Of a stretch of 64,000 nt of DNA, positions 4,547 to 63,679 are shown piece by piece (within the stretch, counting starts at the first letter, position 1; each line of letters begins with the position of its first letter). The notes below the pieces were generated by a model. That model saw only the letters and a list, made by a program, of their open reading frames with translations. It searched no databases and was not told the origin of the DNA. The translations under genes and the position numbers were made by a program. Origin of the DNA: Mesodorylaimus sp. YZB2_4 (lineage: Eukaryota > Nematoda > Enoplea > Dorylaimida > Dorylaimidae); contig JASANH010001039.1 in NCBI GenBank assembly GCA_030248295.1, positions 806,001 through 870,000 on the forward strand, given 5' to 3'.

Positions 4547-7500
4547 CTAACATTTCATCTCAACCATTTCGCTAAAATTTACATGCATCCTGACCACTAA
4601 CCTTTCCAAATATTCCAATAATCTTCTTTCCCTTTCCTTGCAAAATTTGTCGGTACTCCCGCATTCCCAGCAACTCATGGTGTCGGCGGGCGCACTTCGC
4701 TCATGACCCGAACCCTTCATCAAGGACCAATGTTGGACAGGACAATACAAATGCTGACCGAATGCTAAGTACGCCGTTTCGTAATAATCTTCACCCAATG
4801 GACTTTTGTAGACGTATGTGCCCGACATATGCAATTGTGTTGTCGGGTAAAGAATCTTGAGTGTTTGTTGAACCAGATTCGACGCATTATGTAGCACATA
4901 CTGGATTTCTGAAATGCCCGATGACTGAAACGAAAAATGCAAAAGGTACCGCCCTGTGTGGGGCTCGAACCCACGACATTGGGATTAAGAGTCCCACGCT
5001 CTACCGACTGAGCTAACAAGGCTGTGCGTGCGATACGTTACTTTTGACGTTTCGAGCCTGTCTAGCATGTGTTTCGAATTGGGATACTTATGCGAGGTCT
5101 TACCGTAAGCTGAGGCAGAATGTTCTTGAATTTGTCTATATATATTTTTTGCGAGCGAAAAAGACTGTAATGGCGATCGATAAAAAAGCTTTAGCATGCG
5201 CCAAGACATCGAAAAACAGAAATAGGCTCAGGCTTCGGGTCAGGACAGATCAACTTCCTTGCAATCAGGGTGTGCAAAAATAACTCAACAGGTTGTACTA
5301 AAGAGAGTATTGAAAGCTGCTAGGATCAACACAAAATTAGCTGGAAATAGCGCAGTCGAATAAACCGAGGCGAATACTGGACTGTGGTGAAAATACAGTG
5401 CATGGAACGGTCTAGTGCATGCTCTCCTGTGCCCCCACCCAGCATGCTAGGGCTTCCGTGGTCTTTAATGTGTCCACCAGTGCCGTAAGGAGCAAGCCCC
5501 ACACCCTCCAATATGCCTACACGTGGCTAACAAGACTTTGCATTCTCACAGGCGATCAGTACTGTAGGTTAGCTGTGGAACCCGGCTAGACCTTGGATCG
5601 AGTCAGGAACTTTCGGGTCGGGTCGGGTCGGGTCTCTTTTTTTGAAAGATCGGATCAAACGGGTCAAAAATACAGCAATTTTGTAAGTTAGAGAAACCTT
5701 CTCATATCTGCTAAACTCCAGGATTTTGGAATTTGCTTCATGAATGCATGCATAAAGCCTTGCATTACCACGTTTTATGTAATTCTGCGTAACTTGCAAG
5801 AATGTCAGACAAATTATAAGATGTGATAATGGGCAATTTTTCTGAGTAATTTCTGCATAAAGGAAGGTCCATGTGAGTGGAGGCGTCGTGCCTGGAGGAT
5901 TGTTGGATGTGGGCAGTGTAAAATACAATTTCGCTTCTTCGTCTGATATGTGCAAGGTGCTCCGCAAACTTTTTTAACTCCCTCCGTATATTTTACACAC
6001 TTCCAATACAATGTCAAGAGATAAACTAGACCAGTTTTCTCTGCTAATGAAGGCAGGGTTCTAACTGCAAATGCAAAACTGCCTGACACTGAAAATCAGA
6101 AGGATCGATATGTTCGATCCTGAAAGAAGATGTAAATTTAGGGCAGGAGAAGGAGTTTATTCAATTCACCACTATGGCAGCTGCCGACTCTGGCGCAGCA
6201 GTTTTCTCACGTACGAAACATTGGATGGTCTTCTTTCTCCTTGGACCAATCTCGCGTGGTCCAAAAAGCAAAGGCGAAGCAAACGTTTTAGGTCGTGGCA
6301 CATCGTGGCATTAGAGCATGGCTCGGATGATGATTTAAAAAAAACATGGAGTATTTGAGGCATATTCCACATCTTCTAAGATAAGTGATGACGATTCGTG
6401 CATGAGTACTTGTTTCTAGGCGAAGGCTCAAAATTTAAATAGTCGCAGTTTCTTTACACTGACGGTGGGGAAAACGAAACAGTAGGGGATGTCTCACAAT
6501 CATTATTTGGACTGGTCAAATCTTGCTTAAGACTAGCGGACAGACCCTCCCTAGTCGCTGTTATATCTACTAAGGTATTTCTCAATTATTTGAGCACTAT
6601 TCTGGGAAATATGAAGGGATGCAGTTTCTGAAAGAGTTACTGAGGATTACCAGGGAATAACAAAAGGTGAAAATTCGGGTGCGTATAATGAGTTCTCTCC
6701 ATCGAAATATTTTCACACAATTACCTTTACACCAAAGTCACCGCATGTTCTGAGGATTTGTGCAAGGTTTTTATCTCAAGGAACTTCAGCTGCTTATAAC
6801 AAATGCGGGTCAACCTGACCCGAAATTTCGGGCCAGAGACTTTTGGGCCAACTTGTCGAGTTAAACCCGATCTGATCCTCGGTCTAAGCCCGGCTGATCG
6901 TGAGTGTCATTTCTTGCTGCAAAAAATGAGTCTGTTCTATCTGTACATACAGTACATATATCTGTATTTTAGGTGTGCCAAACACACATCGTGTGCACTT
7001 AGTCTGGTAGCAACAGGAAAGACAGTATCGGGTACAGTAGTCAGTGGCGACGGGATGCCAGGTCCTAGGACCACAAAAATTTCAGAATTTCAAAATTTAC
7101 AGAAGGTCAATGGTGATATTCAGGAGTATGTGTTGGCACCAAGCACACCAGTCGCAGGTTTTGCTTGACCGCGATCTTGTGCAATGAATATTTGCTCTGC
7201 AGTGATGGAGCCGCTCGAAACCAAAATGAGGGCCTAGGACTCACGTCAGATATAAACATACAGGTAGGCATCGTGCTTCCTGATGCCAGATATTGCTATC
7301 ACCATGCGGCTTTACGTTGATCAAATTCCAGAATTCGCGCACTCTCAACCCTAACATCATCTTGTCGTAAGGAGCAAGCGAGCGAAAACCTGTTGAATCG
7401 GCCATCTCATCGTCAGTGCAGCTGCCACATCTAATGCAGATGAATTTGGAGACAAAGTAGAGCTGGGAGTAGTAGAGCTGATTATATGTGGAATAGCCCC

Positions 7501-11852: not shown

Positions 11853-14800
11853 ATGGATTTGATTATTTTCCTGCTGTCGTCATGGCATCTCATTAGTGCA
11901 ATTTTCGGTCTGGTGCTTGTGTCAGTGATATGGAATCGGATATCTCGGCCATTGAACCGCATAAAGGTATATACGTCAGGAAAAGTTTCAATGCTGCAGG
12001 GGTGTGGGTTCGATTCCTGATCAGAGCTAATGTTTTTGCACAGGAAAACCTGACCAAGCAACAGCTGGAGAGTAAAGGCAGAGGTGCATTCTATGATTTG
12101 ACTTTTCTAGCATCTCGGTGACATCGGCTACCTCGAGCAGTCTGGTCTGACCCGTGCAGAAACTGTAGCCAAATGGAAACGCTTGAAGAAAATTGGTGCT
12201 GTTCCGCCTGTTTATCCGAATGGATGGTATTATGTGGATGAAACGCATCAACTCAAAGTCGGCGATGTGAAACCCATCGTAGCATTTGGTCAAAACTTGG
12301 TCCTATTTCGTGGCACTGACAACACACCTCATCTTCTGGATGCTTATTGTCCTCATATGGGTGCCAATATGGCCGTAGGTGGGAATGTTGTGAATGGAAA
12401 TTGCTTGCAGTGCCCATTCCATGGATGGGCATTTCGAGGTACCGATGGTCAATGTGTGCATATACCCTATGCATTGGGTGGTAAAATACCAGAAGCAGCT
12501 AAAGTCAAGCGTTGGACAACCACAGAAAAAAATAAACACATATATGTGTGGTATCACTGCGATAACGTGGACCCGACTTGGAATCTACCTGATATTCCTG
12601 AAGTGGAAAGCGGGGAGTGGACATACCGAGGAAGAACCGAACATTATATCAATGCCCATATACAGGTAAAATTAAACATTTTTTCGCGGCTAGTGTTCGA
12701 ATTTTGTACCAGATAATGTAGGATCAAAGCTCGAAGCATACTTTAAAGGGGATTAAGTAATATGGAACTATTTTATGCATTATTCCTCTGAAACTATATA
12801 TTTCGCCTGTTCTCACCTGAAACCATATTTTACCCATTCCTACCCGAAACCATTCCTTATCGTCAAGCATAATTTTCTAATCCTTACCAAAAAAACAGTA
12901 TCTTTCACTCAGACACATTTAAAAGAACCAACTTCATTCATTAACATCTGAAACCCAATTTTACACCCTGCATTGGCTGGAACAATCTTTTACCTAGCTT
13001 ACTGAAATCCTTCATAGGAACCCTACTAAAAACAGGCGGCGGTTCAGAGCAGGAAATAGTATCATGATGGAAAATAAAACGGGTTTTGACGTGAGCAGAA
13101 TGAGAAAAGGCCAGGCGAAAAAAATGTCCCTCTCATAAAATGCACACATTTTCAAGTGGGTATATCTTTAGTTTCTCTGCGAAGCGCGGACCTCAAGTAC
13201 AGCAAAGTGCCTCCACTACATATCGTCCCATTTTGTATTTTTTTGCGCGTCTTTTACTCTGCGTGAAAGAGCAGAAAAATTCAAAAAGTACACTGTACCG
13301 TGCACTTTTTTAGGAAATTCCAGAAAATGGCGCAGATATGTCGCATCTGAACGTCCTTCATCGACCAGCGTTATTTAAAGGATCGGATATCTCTAAAATC
13401 GATTTCTCCAGTACTCTAGACACTACTATTCATGAATGGGATGGCACTTGGCACCAGGAAGAGAATGATCGAAAGCACGTTGGTGTGCTGACATTGAAAC
13501 ATATTCTGAAAATTTTTGGATATAAGCTGCCGCTTGCTAGTGTTGAAGTGAAGGCGTGCCAGGTAAGAACTATACTCTATACATGTACAGTACAAATAGA
13601 GGTACCTCCTTTCTGTGTTTGACCCCGAGGAGCTCTACAGACGGTTACATGCAGCAAAAGTTAGCACTAGCGAGGGTGAGAACATGGCGAGGACACCAGG
13701 AGGGGCCTCTGTCTCCTGTAAGTTGCAGGTCGAACACAACATCGTCACAGCATGGAGAAGAAAGAATTGTGAGGAAACTATTTTGTAATGTGTGGGCCTT
13801 AGCATTCAGACCAAAAACGAGGGTGATCATTTTCAGCAAACTCGCTCAGGGAGAAGAGTTATGCCGCAACATTCTGAGGCTATATGCCGGCTTGAAAAAA
13901 AAATACGAAGATCAGCCAGGCCAGTTTTAGCCTCCCTTTCACTGCAAGCATCAACCAACATCTCTGCTTGCTGCTGCTTAGCATACACAAATCGCTCAAA
14001 TAAGATTCTTGGGATGAAACTGTTTTCGAGCTCCGTTTATAAGAGGCATACAGACAGTATATGAGGGAACTCATTTTTACAACGACCTTTTTATGACACA
14101 CGCGAAAAGCGGCTTCTCTTATTGTATTTTCACCAGTGTCACCCACCGCTTTCCCTGAAGCGTCACTATAAGGTCCCAAGCATAGGCTAACCAGAACATT
14201 TCAAGATTCCTAGCGCTGCATGTGTTCCACTCAACTCTCCCATCGCTTTGTTCTCAACCGAGCTAAAAGAGGGGGGTTAATCGAGGGGTCTTCATGATCC
14301 AACATTTACAGTGTTCGATTCGGACTAGTTCCACGGATGTAACCATTATTACAATAGTTCCATCGAGAGGACCAATGTCTTCACTTTGATCTTTGAGTTA
14401 CATTGCGTGTTTGTATCCCCCGGTGGGTGTCAAATGAGAAGTCATGGTGTGTACAACAACGATATCATTGAATTTTGTGCTGCAGATTGGCCCAGGCGTG
14501 GTCTATTTGTATTTTGACACTGGAATTTTCGGGAAAGGTGTCCTATTTCACCAAGTGACTCCAGAAGGACCTCTGCTACAAAAGTTGCAGCATAACCTCT
14601 ATTTCGGATGGCGTATGCCCACGATTGGTGGAAAGCTACTCCTTTTAGCGGAGGCCTTACAAGTGAGCATTGATTGTTACACTTTTATCGGGCCTAGAAA
14701 ATTTAAGTTAGCCGTGCATTAATATGACCTTAGCTTGTCTTTTATGCTCCTCGCTTTTGGCATCCCTCTATCGGAACAAAACTTTTTTTAAAAAGACAGG

Positions 14801-15280: not shown

Positions 15281-15640
15281 TAAGACTAGATTGTTTGTTG
15301 CAAACCCTAAATTTTCAATGTTCGAAAGATTCATTTCCAGTGAGTTATCTTGTTCAACCAAGGTTTCCCGCATATTTTTTCAAAATTGATATAAGCAGTG
15401 GATTGACCTTGCAAGTTGTCTGCTAGTAAGCGGGATAAAACGATCTTCCATTGATTGACGTGTCCAATGTGCGAGTTTGTTTTGTGTGCCTTTTTATCTC
15501 GTGTCAGGTGTTCAAATATAATCTTTTCGGTCCGTTCATTGGTAATTCACTATGAATTTATTCCAGTTTTAAAACTTTCTGTGTCAGTGTCAATTTTAAT
15601 TTTTTACGGACTGTGAAGGACCAAATTTGGACTGCAGGCA

Positions 15641-17774
15641 ATGAAACGACTTCCACCTCGACTGTTGGCGCTAGGTTTGACCAATAGTGTGTTGTGTAAT
15701 TTCGTTGCCACATTTCCTTATACCGTATTGAATGTACCTCAGGATGTTTTGGAAGGTTTTGTTCGACGTGCATTCCAAAATCGTTACGATTACGAATTAA
15801 GCGCAGGCGCACTGGCTACTTTGTGGGGTTTCTTCGTATGCATTTGGGATATTGGCGGTATGATTGGGGCTGTTTTGACGGCCTATTTGGATGAGAAATT
15901 CGGTCGAAAAGATACACTTTTCATATTTTGTAATTTAGTTCATTTATTTGGTTGTGTTATGACTTTATTAGCAAAACCGACAAATTCTTTCGAATTGCTT
16001 CTCTTGGGTCGATTAATTTTTGGTGTTTCATCAGGCGTTTCGTCAACTTCGATGGGCGTTTTTGTAACGGAATGTTCACCTGATCAATATCGTGGATTTT
16101 TGGGCAATTTTAGTTTATGTTTGCAACCGATCATATGCATTATCGCTATGGTTCTGGGCTTGCCTGAATGCTTGGGTAAGAACTTGAGGGTCGTGAATTT
16201 TGGCCGTCATAGGTCACGTGTTAGATTGGTTCAATATTAGAAGTGATCGGATAGGCGCTAGATCAATCGATCACACACACAGCGGCATTTGAAGTTTGAT
16301 TGCAAATATTGATTGATCAGGCCGTAACTGAACTAAAAACCTGATACCAGTAATTTTGGATGATTTTATCATCAAAAAACCAATTTGGTTGGGCTGTCTT
16401 GGATTTCGCTTCGCAGGTTAGCTGGTCTTTTAAGACAATTTTTCACTAAATTCAATTTTATCATTTTTCAGTGAGACTGGGTTTTAGATCACATTTTTAG
16501 GGGTGCTGTCGATCGATAGGTTCAAGCTGAATAAACGTAGGATGCCAGGGGATAAAATCTAGACCTTTATGTTGACGAGGTAGTGCCTGGAACATAATCG
16601 GTTTTTATCATGATGTATCGACTTCCTCATGGCGGGATATATCGATTTTTCGTTCATTGAAATAGACTGATTTAATCGATTTGTGTTGAGATTTATCGAT
16701 TTTACTCACATGATGTGCATTCTAGGCAACGCTGATAATTGGCCTTATCTGCTCTCATTCAGTGGCCTGGTCTCCTTCACCATTTTGGCTATCACTCCAT
16801 TATTTCGCGAGTCACCAAAATATCTTTACATAGAATGCAATGACACAGTAAGAGCAGCCGAATCGATACGATTCTACTATGGGGAACGCGAAGGTGTTGA
16901 AAATTTGCGCAATATTCTTGATGAATATGATCAAGAAGCCAAATTGGCGTCAGTTGGACGAGAAGCTTCGTTAAGACGAATTCTATCAACGCGTCACTTA
17001 CGCATACCACTCCTCTTATCTGTCGTAGCTAACCTGGCACAGGATACCATAGGTAGCGATGTTGTCAGTAATTATTCCACAGACATAATGGAATCATTAA
17101 ATGGTGTTCCTGCGGATGATCCAAATGCGAGTCTTCGTTTCATGCTCACAACAGTCTTCACGTTGATTCCGGGCATTGTCTCAGCTATTATGGCTACTGG
17201 CTTAGCCGAATATGCAGGTCGAAAGTTCCTTCTCATCTCTGGCTTAACTGGCGCTGTACTGGCAAATATTGTTTTAATGTTGGCCAATTTCATGGAACCA
17301 TCGTTACTTGGAACTGATTCAGGACGAAATATACTTCGCTTAACATCTGCCATTGCTTTTGGAGTATTTAACTTTTCATATTATTTTGGACCGGCCTCAG
17401 TTCCGCAATATATCTATGGCGAGATCACGCCAACAGCATCTCGTTCAACTGTGGCTGCAGCTGCAATGATATCGAATTATGGTGGTTCAACAGTTTATAG
17501 CCTAGTTTATCCTCCATTGTCGCAGATTGCTGGTGCTTATAGTTTCCTCACTACCATCATCCCCACTCTCGTTTGTATCGTCGTCTTGGCTAAGTGGTTA
17601 CCTGAACCAAAAGGGAAGTCTGTCGATGAAATCGTCAATGCGTGGATCGACAAGAAACACAGTGGTGATGGGATCAATGATGATGGGCTCCTAGACTCGA
17701 GCGACACTGCCCCACTGTTGGATGAAGATATGGACAATGATTCAGTTGATCAAAGTAACAGTATTCTAGCTTGA
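15641..17774 (+). CDS. SLC2 (GLUT)-family sugar transporter
   Basis: Two exons, 15641-16175 and 16726-17774, joined in phase 1 to give 527 residues. Major-facilitator signatures are in order: FGRK (87-90) in the TM2-TM3 loop, GRLIFG (123-128), the E..P...RG motif ECSPDQYRG (144-152), ESPKYLY (207-213) after TM6, a GRK loop (AEYAGRKFL) between TM8 and TM9, and PEPKGKS after TM12. Around 10-12 hydrophobic segments are readable. The TM7 region reads QDTIGSD where GLUTs usually have QQxSGIN, so substrate specificity is uncertain. The acidic C-terminal tail (LLDSSDTAPLLDEDMDND) contains a dileucine-type signal. It should move hexoses or related polyols across a membrane by facilitation. The ATG follows an acceptor (GGACTGCAG, ends 15637) by three bases, which fits trans-splicing. 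It lies 360 bp downstream of daf-36 on the same strand. Confidence 0.9.
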
Positions 17775-21987: not shown

Positions 21988-22989
21988 TCTGATTTCTTGT
22001 GAAAAATTATTTAACGGCTTTTTAAAAAAGTGACTTGTAAAATTTGCTTGCGATTTGATTGAACTTTCGTTCGATCGAAAAGATAAATGATAATTTTTGG
22101 CAAGGATATACTATGACCATGATTATTGTCCGCAAAAAATTTGCATATGGTCCACGGACTGGATTTTAAATGATGTAAGTGGCTCTTAGATTACTGTAAC
22201 AAAAACCCGCGAATTCAAAGTTGGCCAATCGAAATTCGCTTGGAAGCCCTGTGGAGAACCAGTTTTGCTGTCCAAACCAAATTCGTTCAAGCACATGGTA
22301 GGTTCGTATTCGGGTTAGGTTCACTTACTTGTAAGGATATAGTAAAGTTCAGTTGGTGCCATCGAAGTGAATCTGTACTCTGAATGAAGTGATCGGAGCA
22401 TCTGAGTTATTATTTGTCGATCGATCACGATCAGGGCTCGCGATACGGTCCCGCACTGCAGATTACCTGGCCTAGATATAACTTTAATCTTCGCTTGTCA
22501 TTCCAGGGGGCTTATAGGATCTGATCGTGAGTGGTGGGGACATGGGATCTCTCCTAAGCCTGGGGAGGCGATATCCAGTACTCCTGAATGGATCCAGCAA
22601 GGAACAAAGGTAGTAGAGGGTGTACCCGCTTGATTGAAACTGAAATCAATGTTGTAAGGACGAAGTTTCGACTTTTCAATAGCTTTCTTTGAATTGCTCA
22701 CGTCTTGCCTTTGATTAGTCGTTCAGATTACAAGCAAAAAGTTGGGCGTAACAGTTTACTTCCATGAGACGACACAAAGAGGATTCCAATAATATTTTCC
22801 TGGAATCTCTAAAGCAGGACCGAAGGCTTTTTCGCGCTTTACACTGTGAAACCTATCTGGACCCCCGAGAAAAGTTTTGTAGCAGAGCTCGAAAACTGGT
22901 GGGTGATCTGACTGTGAGCCGCCATAGAACAGTCCCTCTCTCATGGTGGTGTGAGCCATGCTAACTGGCTCAGCCTAGGGGCCATCCAT

Positions 22990-23200
22990 AAAGGTCGACC
23001 GCAGCCTAGGGGGGGGGGGGGGGCCGCCCCCCCCCCCCCCCCCCGGGGACCCCCCCCCCCCCCCCCGGGGGGGGGGGGGACAGGAAGAACCACCCCCAGG
23101 GGGGGGGGGGGGCAGAAAAGGGCGGGGGGGGGGGGGGGGGGGGGGGGGCGGCGGCCCCAACAAAACCCTCTCTCCCCCCCACCTCCTCTCCTCCTCCCCC
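22990..23200. repeat. poly-G / poly-C block
   Basis: Alternating runs of 10-30 G and C make up most of 210 bp. The block could form G-quadruplexes or a G/C hairpin. It could also be partly a sequencing or assembly artefact. Shorter G or C runs of 10-17 occur near 1336, 2620, 7801, 8961, 29839, 41028, 41094, 45857 and 48178. Confidence 0.9.
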
Positions 23201-23806
23201 CCCCTCTCCCGATAATGCAATTTCGGCTTTATCAGTACTCTTATTCCCGACTGGAATGGCATCTGATCCGAAAGGGAAAAGTTGGGAGGCGATGGCTAAG
23301 CTGATTTAGGCGTTTAGGCCTTTCTGGCCCGCAACCCTGACTGGGAGGCCGGGGTTCTATTCCGACGGAGGACGGCAGTTTAGTAGCTTGTCGCTGGCTT
23401 TGGACTCCTGGCTCCGGGCGACACCACGTTACTGTCAAACGGCGGACGCCCACCCAAGGAGCGGAGAATTGGGAAACTGTCCTCGAACACCAGTCGGGAG
23501 GGTCCCTAAGCTTACGATAAGCCCAAGCCCCTTCTCACCCAGTATGCCCTCGTGTTGAGGTGCTCCCAGTGAAGACCCAGGGAGCCTGCCATGAGAGCTG
23601 GTCACCTCTAGGGATAGGTCGGTATCACCTTTTTCAGGATCGAGATCAGGGCAAGCCCGATCGGGATCGGGATTTTTTTTTTGAGGTCGAACAGTTTGCA
23701 CGCACGAAGGAGATGAGTCTATTTTCGAGACTAAAGCACACTTCAGTCATCCAGGTTTTTTATCAGTTCGAGTTTCAGTCATTATAAATAAGCTGAAATT
23801 GATGAG

Positions 23807-26009: not shown

Positions 26010-29000
26010 TCACCCCATGTAACCAGGCATGCCACTCATGTGCATCACGTCTGCATTTAACGCCTCTGCCACTGATCGAAAGGGTGGGACGGTCAGGTGG
26101 TCGCTGAGGTAGGCTGCCACCTCAGCCAATGGTGGTATGCCAGTCGAGGACGTGGTTTGCTGGTGGGCAGCGGCCACAGCGGCGGCAGTGGCTGCTGACA
26201 TAAGTGGTATGGCTGGACCGAGTACGGCACCCGTTACTGGCGGACTGTGACGATGGTGGTATGCGAATGAAGAAGCAGCCGAGTGCTGCTGATCGAGTGC
26301 TGCCTGCAGTGTACTTTGATCGAGGAGTTGCTGACCAATTAGTGCCGCCGCATGGGCCAAGGATTGTTCGGATGGCTCACCACTCGCGACTTGCGGACCC
26401 TCATTCGGATAGCCATGTTCGCTCGGCTGAATATCGAATGTAACTGTCGTATCCTCTACAATGGTCATATATGTATCACAGTTCCCGCCAAAATCTCATT
26501 TGAATTATACAACTACCACTTCCCGCCTTTTCCAAAACCCTCAGATTTTTAACTTGTCCTTTCGCATGACGTGATTTCTTACCCACATATTCGCTGATAC
26601 TTCGATTATCATCCGACGATCCTAAATCGGCCGAATCATTACTTTGCGGATCACCAACAGAACTGCCGCCTGGTGTCTTCGCTCCTTTACTACTACCACT
26701 CCCACTGAAATAGTGGCTCCATCGAGCACGACCTGCATCCTTTTTCAATCGTTTCTCCTTGGCTCGACGATTTTGGAACTAGCGCACAGAAAAACTCAAG
26801 CTTACTTCGAGATTCAGGAAAGTACAGTAAGCGACTTACCCAAACCTAAAATAGAGGTAGAATCAGGGGTGAATCAAAACTCTAGCATGGGCCCATGTGA
26901 TTTTAACAGTAGCACATCGAGGCGGAGGGCCCAGTGGCAGCCAGGAAAGGTCATATCTGGAACTATATTTTACACACCGTGAAAAATTTTCTCTTCAGTT
27001 CTAGTTCAGGAAACCATAGAAAACTAGTAGCTGGTGCTCTAATGAATTCCCGCGACATTGGGTAAAATACAGTTTCAGACATCTTTTCTATAAACAGTTT
27101 CAAGAAAAGTATTAAAGATAACTTACTTGAACCACGCGCATATCCAGTCCAGTATCGGCGGCCAACTGTTCCCGCACATGCCTGGCTGGTTTTGGCGACG
27201 CCTGATAAGCTTGTTTCAAAGTCTCTAGTTGTTTGGCCGAAATAGTTGTCCTGGGCCTTTTGTTCGTGCTGTCTGCATCTAAAAAGCGTGCCTGTTTACG
27301 TGTGCATAAAAATGCAAGTGCTGAGATGATGCCAGCATCGAATCATTAACCACTGGTCTGGTCTACATCAAGGTACTGTAACAGGCACTAATCCATATCT
27401 GAAGCCATATTTTACGCTGCTAGAAATAATATGGAGCACGTGTCTAGCGATTACTTCTCGATCCACAAAGTCAGCTTCAGGTCTTCCGTGGCATCTTACA
27501 TAAGACTGCCACGTTCTTTAGAAGCGTGGTTCATGGTGTGTGAAATACGGTTTCAGACGGGAAGTTTGGCAGTATGTAGGTACATAGCTGATTGCATGCG
27601 AAAAATTGAAAGATGTGGAAGTCTTTAGTTGCATAATAATATATACGTTTCTTAATTCACAGGATAGAAACCCATTTTGTTCCTGCACACTGTAGCACCA
27701 AGCCCCACTTGCTAGAGGTTCACGGGCAAACTCCGATACATGCCCGTTCGAAGGACCCACACCCCCTCCGCAAACAGTCCCAGACCACCTTACCTTTGTT
27801 TTTGGCTGCATCATAATCTTGCTTACACACCAACTTTCCATCGGACGGAATCAAATAGAATTCATCTCCTGTATCCATTTCACGACTGCAAATAACACAT
27901 TTGAAACATTGCAAATGGTAGACGTGATCATGCGCTTTGCGAACCACACTTTGAGGTGCAATGCCTTGTTTGCAACCAGAGCATTTAGTGCCAAATTTCC
28001 TAGAAGCAAGACACATTTCAAAATTTTGAATTCCCGCCATACGTTAAGTGATAGTCAAGTACTATAAGCGACTTCAAATGCCGCTGTTTGGGCAGTGTAA
28101 AGAAACCGGAACGAAGAAATAAGTGAAAAATCTGAGCCCTGAGAAGGAATCGAACCTCTGTCCTAACGGAAGATACTCACTTGAAAAAATCTTCTTTACA
28201 ATAGACCAGATTTTCTCTCGTGTAACACTTTCCATTCAATTGTTGCTGGCAGTCGGCACACCGTAAGCAATGGGCGTGGTAATGACAGTCCAATACTTTC
28301 AGTATGAATCTGTCCAATATCGATTTTTGACATCCGGAGCATTTGGCTACAGAAACTAAGAAAAGAACTCTGATGTACTGTAGCCTGTTGTCTGCTCTTT
28401 CTTATTACGTTATGCCTGTCAGTGTGTTTCTCCTCATGCCGAGCGGGGCATCCATTTGCTCGAGACCGTCATCAGTCTCGTGCCCTCACGCCTGGCCCAG
28501 GCGTATCCATTTACGGAGTTGCGAGGGGGGCGCTCAGTCAAAAGCCATATGGTCAAATGGATTGATATGGTAGGAAATGGGCGGTCGGGGGCTCATCCTG
28601 GCCAAAGATCGATGCCCGAGTGCTCATGTAACCTGTGCACTATAGTATTAGGCCAGGCCTCAGACCGTATGTCATGAATTTTTAACACGCTCTCTTCTGC
28701 CCGCCGTGTTGTTCGATTCGACAAATTAATTTCTCCTAGCTTAGTCGAACGGAAGCAGACCTTTTACATTTGCTCTAATCGTATAGGAAAAGGAGATTGA
28801 AGAAAAACGAGCAAAGCCGAGCGTAGCGGGGGTCAATCGGGCGAAGAAGGAGATGGGAATTAGCGAATAGCCATGCCCGCGCCAAGACACCTCGAGGCTA
28901 GTGTCAACAAGAGGATGAAAGCATTTCAGCTAACACCTTATACGTATTGGTTTTACAGTAGGACTAGCCGGATGCCAGCGGTTACAGTAGGACAGAGTCA

Positions 29001-60125: not shown

Positions 60126-62632
60126 CTAAGCAACGCCTTCTTGGGGCAGGACACCACCAATTCTGGTTTCTATCATGACAGTGTTATTGCCACGTCGAAT
60201 TTTCAAAAATCCATTATCACCGAAATTTACTCCGTGCGAGTCGACGATAAGCCAATAATCGACACCATTCTCCTTGCCCCATCCGATAATTTTCACCGCG
60301 TGCACGTCGGTTTCTATGCCGTATTTTTGTTCGTACACCCCTGAAATGCAATATTTTTGTTTACACTGCTCTGAAACCATTATTTGAAATTCGCGCGCTA
60401 CGTGATCGCACTGCTGCTTATGTCAAGATGAGTGTGCGTGAGCTCGCGCGCGGGCATAAACAGAATTGCATCCTTTCGTGGTATAGCCAGCTATAAAAAT
60501 TGATTCTTTATGTCTCACCTGTTTTGTGGAAATAAAAATCAGTAAAAACACGCATACTGGCAGTGACTGGTCCGTACACATATACTTCTCGCTGTATGGT
60601 CTCCACATTTGGATAGTACCAATGATAGTAATCACCACCTAAATTTGAATTTTACGCTTAAACTTTGAATTTTAGATAATATTTTAAAAGTAACTTGCCT
60701 CGAATTTTATCCTCTTCAAATGTTTTGGGATAATTTGGATTAGTGCACGATCTTGGGCATCCAGTAGGATTTCGAATGAAGTTAAGAGGCAGTGGTAAGC
60801 ACCCGTCTGGTTGGTTAGCTTCACGATATGCAGTGCCCCCTGTCACTAGTCCTCGGTGGACCCAATGTTCGAAAGCATTGAATTCCAAACCTCCGTCGCA
60901 GCTAAAAGCAAAAAATAAGCTTTAGGACGGATGATGTGCAACGATACAAACATGGAGATGAGCTTTCGCATGAGTCTGTATTCGCACTTAAAGCGTTGAA
61001 CGATGAGCCCCTGTGATAATACTTCACACTAGGTGTACTGTATGAAGCTGCGGCATAGAGCAAATTTGTAATTGAATTAGTGAATATACTTTGTAATACT
61101 CAAGGGATTTGTAATAAAATCAGTTTAGTGAATATTTAGTGGCTATAATTCACAGCTGGAAGCGGATACAGCTCGTGAATGAAGTATAAGTCATGAATAT
61201 TTTACCATATACCAGCAAGTTCGTGTTTACAAGTATATGCACGTAATTTGCTGTATATAATTCTGGTTTTAAACAGTATCTACATAATAATAATACTAGT
61301 TACTTCCATTACTAAATATATGCTCATTCTATTTACAGTATATCCCAAGTATGCTTGATATTGCAACATATACTTTTTTACAAATTTTTGAAAGCTGAAA
61401 TCTTTCTGAGCCCCTGATATGCGGGACCTACCGTATGTGTGAATGCATATGTATATGATATATTTATAAATGTTTTCTTCTTGTGTAGATATGCAGTATG
61501 TGTATCCATAAAACGCAAATTTGAATGTATATATAGTATATATAGATAGTATTCTACGCCCGCATTGTTTCATTACGCATGTAAGCTTTTCGAACGATAT
61601 ACTGTATGTCCAGTTGTGGGGATAGGCACAGTATGGATATTGAGCTCTTGATGAGCGGCAAGCGTGATTGCGTATAAGCACATAAGCCTTTCCTGACGTA
61701 GCGAAGCATGAACTGGCGTTTGTTATATATATATATATATATACAGTATATGTATTGACTGTTTATTTATATATATATGCAAAGTATATGTCACAAAAAT
61801 ATAAATGTATGTATGTATTCTATGCATATAACTATAAATGTACTTTATATGGTATGTTTATTGTTCCACCAGATTTACTGCTTAACATATATAAAACTGC
61901 TGTACGGTTTTTGTGAAGAAACGCATTCCTTTGATTTCATGCCGGGTTTAGAACAGTCCCTAAACGTGCAGTATTACATATAATTTTTACCCGTTTCCAA
62001 CGCACGAGAGGACTTGCATTGTTGAAAAGAAAATCTGACCAGTTTTTGCATAGTTATAAATACAGTGACGATCGCTGATGACAGAGACTGATGCGAAGGC
62101 CTGAAGAATAAAGACAGCATTGTGCGCAAGAACGAACGATTTTATCTAAAGACTAGATTTCGCACGAGACCAGTCCATGACGCAGTTGTCTTCTGCGTTT
62201 GGCTCACGGTCAGTCACAAGAATTCAGGCTTTCTTAAAGTAAAAATTGCTTTGAGCATGAGAGTTTTCTTGCAGCATTAAATTTGAATTCCCGCCAATTT
62301 TTTGCGGGAATTCAAATTTTTGTGCATTCCCAACATACCCAACATCCACCGCATGCCATTTGATTTCTGATCGATCCAATACTCGAACAATATGGATAAT
62401 CCCATCGTACATCATAGGTCTCAGGTAAATTTGTAAATCGTGTTTCTCTACCTGGTTCTTCATCATACTCACTCTCACCAGGACGGACCCGCAATGGAGG
62501 CAGTTTGCGTATTTTTCTTGAATGTTCTCTTTTTGGGGGCTGTGGGCCTGATTTGAGATCAGTGCTAATTGAAGAAGGAATGCTAATTGAGATCAGTACA
62601 ACTAGTGTCAAAAATGGACCAATCATGCCCAT
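60126..62632 (-). CDS. cathepsin-B-like cysteine protease homologue with altered active site
   Basis: Five exons on the minus strand: 62632-62339, 62100-61991, 60901-60699, 60638-60519 and 60340-60126, in phase, 313 residues. A signal peptide (MGMIGPFLTLVVLISI...) and a propeptide of about 50 residues precede LPETYDVRWDYPYC. The active-site block is NQMACGGCW, with Gln91 and Cys97 at the oxyanion and nucleophile positions. GNGCDGGLEFNAFEHW and GPVTASMRVFTDFYFHKTGVYE follow the cathepsin B pattern. His256 is present (DVHAVKIIGWG). The Asn that orients His is Asp276 and the next Trp is His278 (VDSHGVNFGDNGF). The occluding-loop His pair of cathepsin B is absent. Cathepsin B acts in lysosomes or gut lumen; here activity may be reduced or changed. 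The intron after 60699 begins with GCAAGT rather than GT. A 16-bp perfect hairpin lies in intron 1. Confidence 0.88.
61718..61745. repeat. (TA)n microsatellite
   Basis: About twelve TA units in a cathepsin-like gene intron, with scattered TATATA and CATATA around it (61430-61870). Confidence 0.9.
62279..62319. repeat. perfect 16-bp hairpin around CCCGC/GCGGG
   Basis: AAATTTGAATTCCCGC (62279-62294) is exactly inverted at 62304-62319 with a 9-nt loop. It starts about 20 nt inside the 5' end of cathepsin-like intron 1. AAATTTGAATTCCCGCC-like half copies occur at several places, for example near 26485, 32510 and 35125. Confidence 0.75.
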
Positions 62633-63679
62633 TTTTGGTCAGCTTGAGGATTCCTCAGTAGAGCGGAGTAAGTGTATGAAGAAACGTCAGTTTACCAGTC
62701 ATCGTCTCCTTTTATACTGTCCTTTTTCCATCTCGCACCAGTCTAGTCTAGTCAGTGCCAAATCGGTCGACCTCACCTGGAACATACGGAAGTCGGCAAT
62801 GATATGCGCAAGGTCATTGATAAAAGAGTAAACCCGTTGCTGATGCTGTCGATTCTTTTTGTGCGAAAGTCAGAGCGACTTTTCGATAAATGGTATATTC
62901 CTAAGATAAAGGTTATCTAGTTGCATAGAACAGGCTTGGTTACAGGATTAGTTGGTTCGTTGAACATGGACGTCCATGGGTGCAAAACTGGAATTTCAAT
63001 TTTCTCTACTCGAGCATCTACTCGAACGCCTTCTTGAAGAAATGAAGTGAACCCGAAACTGATGTGACAGGTCATGTGTCACTGCCTTGTCTATTACCAG
63101 TCAAACAATGCCCGTTTTTCGTTTGGCTGCACCCAATATAATGACAGGTCCGGTTCGAAATTCTCTTTTCAGTACTCGCATCAGATGATCGGTTTTTTCC
63201 ATCAGCGAAAATCATTTTCTGCCTGATAATGACATTTTGACTAGGGAATACAAACTGCATACACGTATTTCCAATTTGATTCAATGAGAGAGGAAGCTTT
63301 CGAAAAGTTTAACACCAGCGGGAATCGAACCTAGCCCGTCGCAATCGGGATTACTGCCAGGGTACAATTCAGCCAGAGAAAAATATGAGCACATAGAAAT
63401 CGGGAAGCGGGGCACAGGCCACGACCAAGAAAATGGGCAAGCCAGCACTACCAACTCTAAAAATGTGCAACAGCCAATATCAATCGTGATTATGTCTTCC
63501 TCACTATGTAATAGTTTCTTCTTTTTGTTCGGTCGAGGAGGTCGTTAACCCGCTCGACCTCGCCAAAAATCCGCGGCATTATTTGCCAGAAATTATCATT
63601 ATTGCCAGAAAAGGCTACCGCTGAAAATTACATCGCGCAAAACAATATGGCCTCACTTGGCTAGGGCACAGATGTTGAG
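62633..63679. other. intergenic, upstream of the cathepsin-like gene
   Basis: Likely holds the promoter of the minus-strand cathepsin-like gene. A SINE-like fragment occupies 63309-63385. No coding sequence supported. Confidence 0.45.
63309..63385 (-). repeat. tRNA-derived SINE-like fragment
   Basis: On the minus strand CTGGCTGAATTGTACCCTGG (A box) precedes GGTTCGATTCC (perfect B box, 63321-63331). The acceptor arms do not pair, so it is not scored as a tRNA gene. Confidence 0.5.

Follow-up and report, generated by a model that had tools for sequence, protein, structure and literature searches.

The window analysed in this study, i.e., the whole stretch of 64,000 nucleotides, carries on its minus strand a gene in which two LIM domains lie in open frames, the first at 28180..28401 (PF00412, 5.9e-15) and the second at 27723..28043 (PF00412, 1.4e-17). 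These two PF00412 matches are followed, on the same strand and in this order, by a single PF00046 match, as in an LHX3/4 LIM-homeodomain gene, and among solved relatives the homeodomain is closest to Lhx4 of PDB 5hod (E 4.2e-30, 52 of 59 residues identical), the next being LMX1A (2.2e-17). The LHX3/4 (CEH-14) identity put forward in the original prediction is hence borne out, and the gene is called ceh-14-like, or ceh-14 for short, in the following. A comparison of three homeodomains with the NCBIfam profiles gave no matches. Elsewhere in the window lie a tRNA-Lys (CTT) gene (4950-5022, minus strand), a low-complexity segment that is open in several frames as Pro/Gly-rich repeats (22918-23309), and open frames which we take to resemble a Rieske oxygenase of the DAF-36 type (12111-12716, plus strand), a sugar-transporter-like protein (15617-17774, plus strand) and cathepsin-B-like peptidases (60126-62638, minus strand).

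The homeodomain of the ceh-14-like gene is interrupted within helix 3. One exon ends after Gln46 (...LDMRVVQ; 27127..27278, minus strand) at the donor CAA/GTAAGT (slashes mark splice junctions), the next long exon starts with Phe49 (FQNRRAKEK; 26583..26778, minus strand, read directly), and the two would join in phase 0 between the 3' end at 27127 and the 5' start at 26778. The codons of Val47 and Trp48 are read directly as GTTTGG at 26845-26840 of the minus strand (26840..26845), in the context CTATTTTAG/GTTTGG/GTAAGT that had been predicted. Searched in all frames of the minus strand, the 348 bases between the RVVQ and FQNRR exons hold no other hexamer for Val-Trp or Ile-Trp. The upstream intron of 281 nt (26846..27126, minus strand) thereby falls at homeodomain position 46/47 and the downstream intron of 61 nt (26779..26839, minus strand) at position 48/49. 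With canonical GT-AG introns on both sides, the predicted internal exon fits the microexon class in size (up to 27-30 nt), and the earlier remark that six bases are near the lower limit of exon size is fair, exons of 3 nt, 4 nt and 1 nt being known.

Splice sites were scored with matrices trained on homeobox introns of this genome (23 donors, 21 acceptors); the training set contained no ceh-14 site, and 5 of its donors and 4 of its acceptors come from sister microexon genes. The microexon acceptor CTACCTCTATTTTAG is the best of the 21 AGs in the interval (9.9) and the microexon donor TGG/GTAAGT the best of the 23 GTs (14.6), followed by the donor after Gln46 (8.9, second). By comparison, the acceptor GTGCGCTAG of the 61-nt intron, which is that of the FQNRR exon, is weak (2.9): it ranks second of the 21 AGs and lies below even the lowest-scoring training acceptor (range 4.7 to 15.4, n=21). 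Within the same intron a second donor-like sequence, GAA/GTAAGC (26800..26808, minus strand), is the third-ranking GT of the interval and has a low score with the homeobox-derived matrix (3.5). Its GT starts at 26805, which is 40 nt past the microexon acceptor, and 27 nt are left to the intron end. The sequence AGGTNTGGGTRAGT has a single exact match on the two strands of the window and three matches when up to two mismatches are allowed, which is comparable to shuffled sequence (mean 1.78). A stable RNA hairpin that would present the microexon is not supported, since the fold has a z of -0.93 and 36 of 200 shuffles fold equally well.

Inclusion of the microexon is what both the coding need and the splice sites predict. 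With GTTTGG the translation gives a full homeodomain (Pfam PF00046, 81.0 bits), whereas without it the frame stays open, helix 3 lacks Val47-Trp48 and the score drops to 61.3 bits, so that skipping amounts to the in-frame deletion of two residues that had been foreseen; retention of the upstream or the downstream intron leads to a stop or a frameshift. The original prediction had further described Trp48 as the most conserved homeodomain residue and as needed for DNA binding. Its near-invariance stands, and PMC4901127 names W48 among the near-invariant residues of the hydrophobic core. Without the pair, both the fold and the helix-3 register should therefore be perturbed, and not simply a DNA contact lost; since W48 is such a core residue the skipped form would probably misfold.

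The arrangement is not unique to ceh-14, as at least eight other homeobox genes of this genome have the same 6-nt exon, which brings the number of genes with an isolated Val47-Trp48 pair to at least nine, from the LIM, PRD and NK-like classes. A search of the genome for AG/GTNTGG/GT followed, after a gap of 45-75, by AG/TT(C or T), the start of the Phe49 codon, gave eight matches, namely ceh-14 and genes on C7, C8, C44, C54, C63, C179 and C181, whereas the reversed pattern gave none. A ninth Val-Trp exon lies in a Pitx-like gene with a downstream intron of 177 nt; as the pattern covered downstream gaps of 45-75 bases, nine is a lower bound. In eight of the nine genes the downstream intron measures 55-65 nt. 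The upstream exon could be read to its end after residue 46 in ceh-14 and six others, the gene on C7 among them; the one on C44 ends after Lys46, the long intron in between being read in part, and the gene on C63 is counted without the end of its upstream exon having been read. The class of each homeobox gene was assigned by sequence likeness, and the names unc-4, ceh-17 (Phox2), alr-1, unc-30 (Pitx), cog-1 (Nkx6), Otx, Rx and Lhx1/5 are likewise our assumption from such likeness, which was checked against solved structures for Phox2b, Pitx2 and Lhx4 only. The 145-Mb genome as a whole holds 78 homeodomain matches, many of which end at position 46 or 48 and so indicate introns in helix 3, as well as 133 matches to the cuticle-collagen N-domain (Col_cuticle_N), which mark it as that of a nematode. 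A search for the nematode SL1 22-mer gave no exact match, which does not show that it is absent. A literature search returned nothing on a set of homeobox genes with 6-nt exons for Val47 and Trp48 among the matches listed, subscription journals being mostly outside its scope.

In three more genes an exon of 12 nt occupies the same spot. On C11 and C64 it encodes VKIW and lies between introns at homeodomain positions 44/45 and 48/49 (loci L090, G000:C11:612620-612860, and L077, G000:C64:156900-157480), the end of the upstream exon on C11 being derived from the Pfam match. A third match to the VKIW pattern, on C1, proved false, as it is part of a longer exon. The remaining 12-nt exon, GTGTGGTTCCAG, encodes VWFQ at about 2060-2071 of locus L065 (G000:C2:1092260-1098697), presumably an Rx-like gene, and is followed by an exon starting NRRAKWRRQEK.

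Where the two introns at 46/47 and 48/49 occur together in one gene, Val47-Trp48 is left isolated on six bases, and each of the two positions, of which W48/F49 is frequent in this nematode, is also found by itself. The 46/47 intron is present without a microexon in two Otx-like genes (C143) and an Lhx1-like gene (C4), and the 48/49 intron in Hox-like genes. Among 38 matches to a pattern for the acceptor of the W48/F49 intron (reversed control 22), 27 could be assigned to homeobox loci, either from the sequence around them or by pairing with a matching exon. The remaining 11 comprise four that read as something else, two with FQNS instead of FQNR (C115, C248) and five outside the fetched loci. 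By a corresponding pattern, Trp48 and Phe49 lie within one exon in 20 places (reversed control 7). As side observations, the 46/47 intron of L078 (G000:C43:208800-209290, minus strand) starts with GCAAGT and is apparently a GC-AG intron, and Hox-like homeodomains occur in similar pairs on different contigs (G000:C1 ~1720933-1731450 with C36 ~239301-256480, and C39 113939 with C2 2002850), as if part of the Hox set had been duplicated in this nematode.

The upstream intron of ceh-14 shares a long-known position (PMC2211742, PMC2938728, PMC1779571). Many human PRD genes carry an intron at this 46/47 position (PMC2211742), as do 31 of 33 PRD homeodomains of Nematostella, at nucleotide 139 of the homeobox (PMC1779571). 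The 48/49 intron, which makes the microexon here, goes unmentioned in the excerpts of the three papers. It may nevertheless already be on a published list, since one of these sources places bilaterian homeodomain introns at more than 20 positions.

The introns that follow the helix-3 microexons, 55-69 nt long except for those of the Pitx-like gene and of C2, mostly show a further feature. A second donor-like sequence resembling that of ceh-14 recurs in six of the nine other short introns of this kind, giving 7 of 10 in contrast to an internal one in 0 of 16 short homeobox introns used for comparison (Fisher 1.8e-4), although such p-values overstate independence, because paralogous introns may share their history, and the groups are small. 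None of 20000 plain base shuffles of the intron interiors reached seven. The motif was defined as GTRAG or GTACG, the latter having been added after the intron on C11 was seen; under the strict GTRAG motif six of the ten introns qualify, and an earlier cut-off at a donor score of 4 bits, below which ceh-14 fell, gave 4 of 8 versus 0 of 15. Left out of the ten, being long, were the 177-nt intron of the Pitx-like gene and the intron on C2. The comparison set (52-110 nt) comprised ten introns of genes with W48/F49 only, two at 46/47, one at 44/45 and three short ones upstream of microexons, taken from the microexon genes themselves. For reference, GTRAG occurs in the window at 0.0016 per base and strand.

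The second donors read AAG/GTAAGC, TCG/GTAAGC, TTT/GTAAGT, TTG/GTAAGT, GAG/GTAAGT, GAA/GTAAGC (ceh-14) and CAG/GTACGT (C11, 26 nt into the next intron), and lie at +23 to +34 in the intron, i.e., 29-40 nt from the microexon acceptor. They are absent from three of the ten introns (C7, the Lhx1-like gene on C54, and C64), and the 177-nt intron of the Pitx-like gene contains no GTRAG. Five introns longer than 130 nt in genes with W48/F49 only likewise lack GTRAG at +20 to +36; a sixth (L032, 244 nt) has GTGAG at +29, so the motif is not exclusive to microexon introns, and a seventh, L083, was not part of this survey.

Two properties of the second donors bear on what they might be for. Past each of them only 27-40 nt of intron are left, which is less than the shortest comparison intron (52 nt). 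Moreover, the provisional exon between the microexon acceptor and the second donor has a length divisible by three only on C181 (30 open bases) and not in the other six cases; splicing at the second donor of ceh-14 would shift the frame. It is hence unlikely that these donors serve a second protein. The upstream introns are longer where a second donor is present (107 to about 3600 nt) than where it is absent (60, 110 and about 190-200 nt; exact p 0.033, n=7 and 3, with the lengths of C11, C44, C63 and C64 estimated from match coordinates), as would be expected if the second donor substitutes for intron definition.

From our point of view, the six bases probably represent a real and obligatorily included exon, trapped between the 46/47 and 48/49 introns, which would be removed in order. 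A 6-nt exon is thought to be too small to hold two splice-site complexes side by side (PMC8378409); too small as it is for ordinary exon definition, its two introns would have to be handled one after the other, and we infer that the exon is included in all tissues. What is more tentative, and in our judgement somewhat less likely than its opposite, is that the second donor defines a provisional exon in ceh-14 and most of its sister genes and thereby sets up splicing in two steps. By binding the second donor at +23 to +34 of the downstream intron, U1 would delimit a provisional exon (29-40 nt). Removal of the upstream intron would come first, and the first donor, by then located at the end of a long exon and far from any acceptor complex, would be used for the second intron. 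This choice in the second step would be due to the short distance from the second donor to the acceptor, only 27-40 nt.

A precedent for such a role comes from human cells, in a KPNA1 reporter whose exon carries an inner donor after 6 nt. There, the downstream donor is needed for any inclusion, and the inner donor is used, giving a 6-nt microexon, when the transcript is part-spliced or the exon junction complex is depleted (PMC6224609). With the exon junction complex in place the inner donor is repressed (PMC6224609), and as this is the normal situation in human cells, the proposal requires the nematode to evade such repression. Also unfavourable to the proposal are the low scores of the second donor and of the final acceptor in ceh-14, and the lack of a second donor in three of the ten introns and in the Pitx-like gene.

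The strongest alternative, to which we give a little less than an even chance, is that intron definition alone suffices. The short downstream intron of about 55-65 nt would then be removed first, fusing the Val-Trp codons to the FQNRR exon, and removal of the upstream intron would follow, while the second GTAAG would be a product of chance or a leftover. Obligatory inclusion and ordered splicing are common to this explanation and the provisional-exon proposal. In its favor, eight of the nine Val-Trp exons have downstream introns in just this size range, a PRP-40-assisted model for C. elegans microexons does without a helper donor (PMC8378409), and around a 9-nt exon of potato splicing begins with the second intron (cited in PMC4674806). 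The genes on C7 and C54, which have short introns on both sides and no second donor, fit such a downstream-first order. However, the model has no need of the enrichment of second donors (7 of 10 versus 0 of 16; 0 of 20000 shuffles), which speaks for an upstream-first order in most microexon genes, and in ceh-14 it would have to rely on the weak downstream acceptor (2.9). Either order results in obligatory inclusion all the same.

It is improbable, by contrast, that skipping is regulated such that a LIM protein with a broken homeodomain titrates partners in some cells, possibly in parallel across several homeobox genes. Skipping does preserve the frame, the LIM domains of CEH-14 alone bind LIM-7 in the yeast two-hybrid system (PMC5496915), neuronal microexons of C. 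elegans are often alternative (PMC8378409, PMC12287369), and in Drosophila 283 of 411 microexons in exon-microexon-exon arrangement are as well (PMC8042270). The microexon acceptor is, however, far stronger than that of the next exon (9.9 versus 2.9), even if inclusion needs the weak acceptor too, and the layout follows from two intron positions that are common to many homeobox genes and has nothing specific to LIM proteins. The dominant-negative switch particular to CEH-14 that was originally proposed thus finds no support, given that at least nine homeobox genes have the same exon. That GTTTGG is a chance match, with the Val-Trp codons supplied by another exon or a non-canonical site, is scarcely credible, for although six bases alone hold little information, this is the only such hexamer in 348 nt, it sits between the top acceptor and the top donor, and eight other homeobox genes repeat the arrangement where the reversed-pattern control finds none.

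Returning to the provisional exon, one could speculate that a recurrent device is at work, in which a helper 5' splice site that is useless for coding first defines the provisional exon and is then bypassed for the donor 6 or 12 nt into it; this device would have been kept or gained in several homeobox classes to deliver the core of the recognition helix, an idea that we regard as rather doubtful. It would be a very long shot to assume in addition that, by way of the helper donors, DNA binding by a whole set of neuronal homeodomain proteins is turned on or off jointly by one splicing factor.

Single tiny exons were already known. New here is the second donor-like sequence in most of the helix-3 microexon introns, and it is unusual that in a set of homeobox genes the near-invariant Trp48 shares a 6-nt exon with nothing but Val47. 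The question of how spliceosomes find exons below their own footprint can thus be asked in about a dozen natural replicates, with the second donor as a candidate element. As a warning for annotation, Trp48 may be missing from the gene models of many homeodomains of this animal unless the alignment was microexon-aware.

Among the closest known systems is micro-Ex8 of Drosophila hth, which likewise belongs to a homeobox gene and measures just 3 nt; it arises from a donor just inside a longer exon, which has another donor farther along (3 or 48 bp; PMC7392893). In hth, however, the microexon lies between the exons of the MH domain and the homeodomain and both donors make in-frame proteins (PMC7392893). 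The nematode microexons lie inside helix 3, the length of the provisional exon is divisible by three in one of seven genes, and past the second donor there are only 27-40 nt of intron. Human cryptic microexons or RS-exons are similar in anatomy: no more than 15 nt separate the acceptor from a first donor, a further donor follows downstream, and splicing takes place in two steps (PMC6224609). A corresponding layout, with a candidate second donor, is present in ceh-14 and in six of the nine sister introns. In human cells, however, the exon junction complex normally keeps the tiny exon repressed (PMC6224609), whereas in the nematode the tiny exon would be the required product. The PRP-40-dependent neuronal microexons of C. 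elegans, such as that of unc-13 (PMC8378409, PMC12287369), also come from a nematode, are too small for exon definition and depend on the length of neighbouring introns, as would be the case here; they are alternative cassette exons, in contrast to an obligatory pair of homeodomain residues of which one belongs to the core. Lastly, the constitutive 4-nt exon of MPC1 (PMC9929638) and the 1-nt exon of Arabidopsis APC11 (PMC4674806) resemble the nematode case in being obligatory exons of a few bases. Both are, however, found in single genes, whereas in this nematode one and the same codon pair has been isolated in many members of a gene family.
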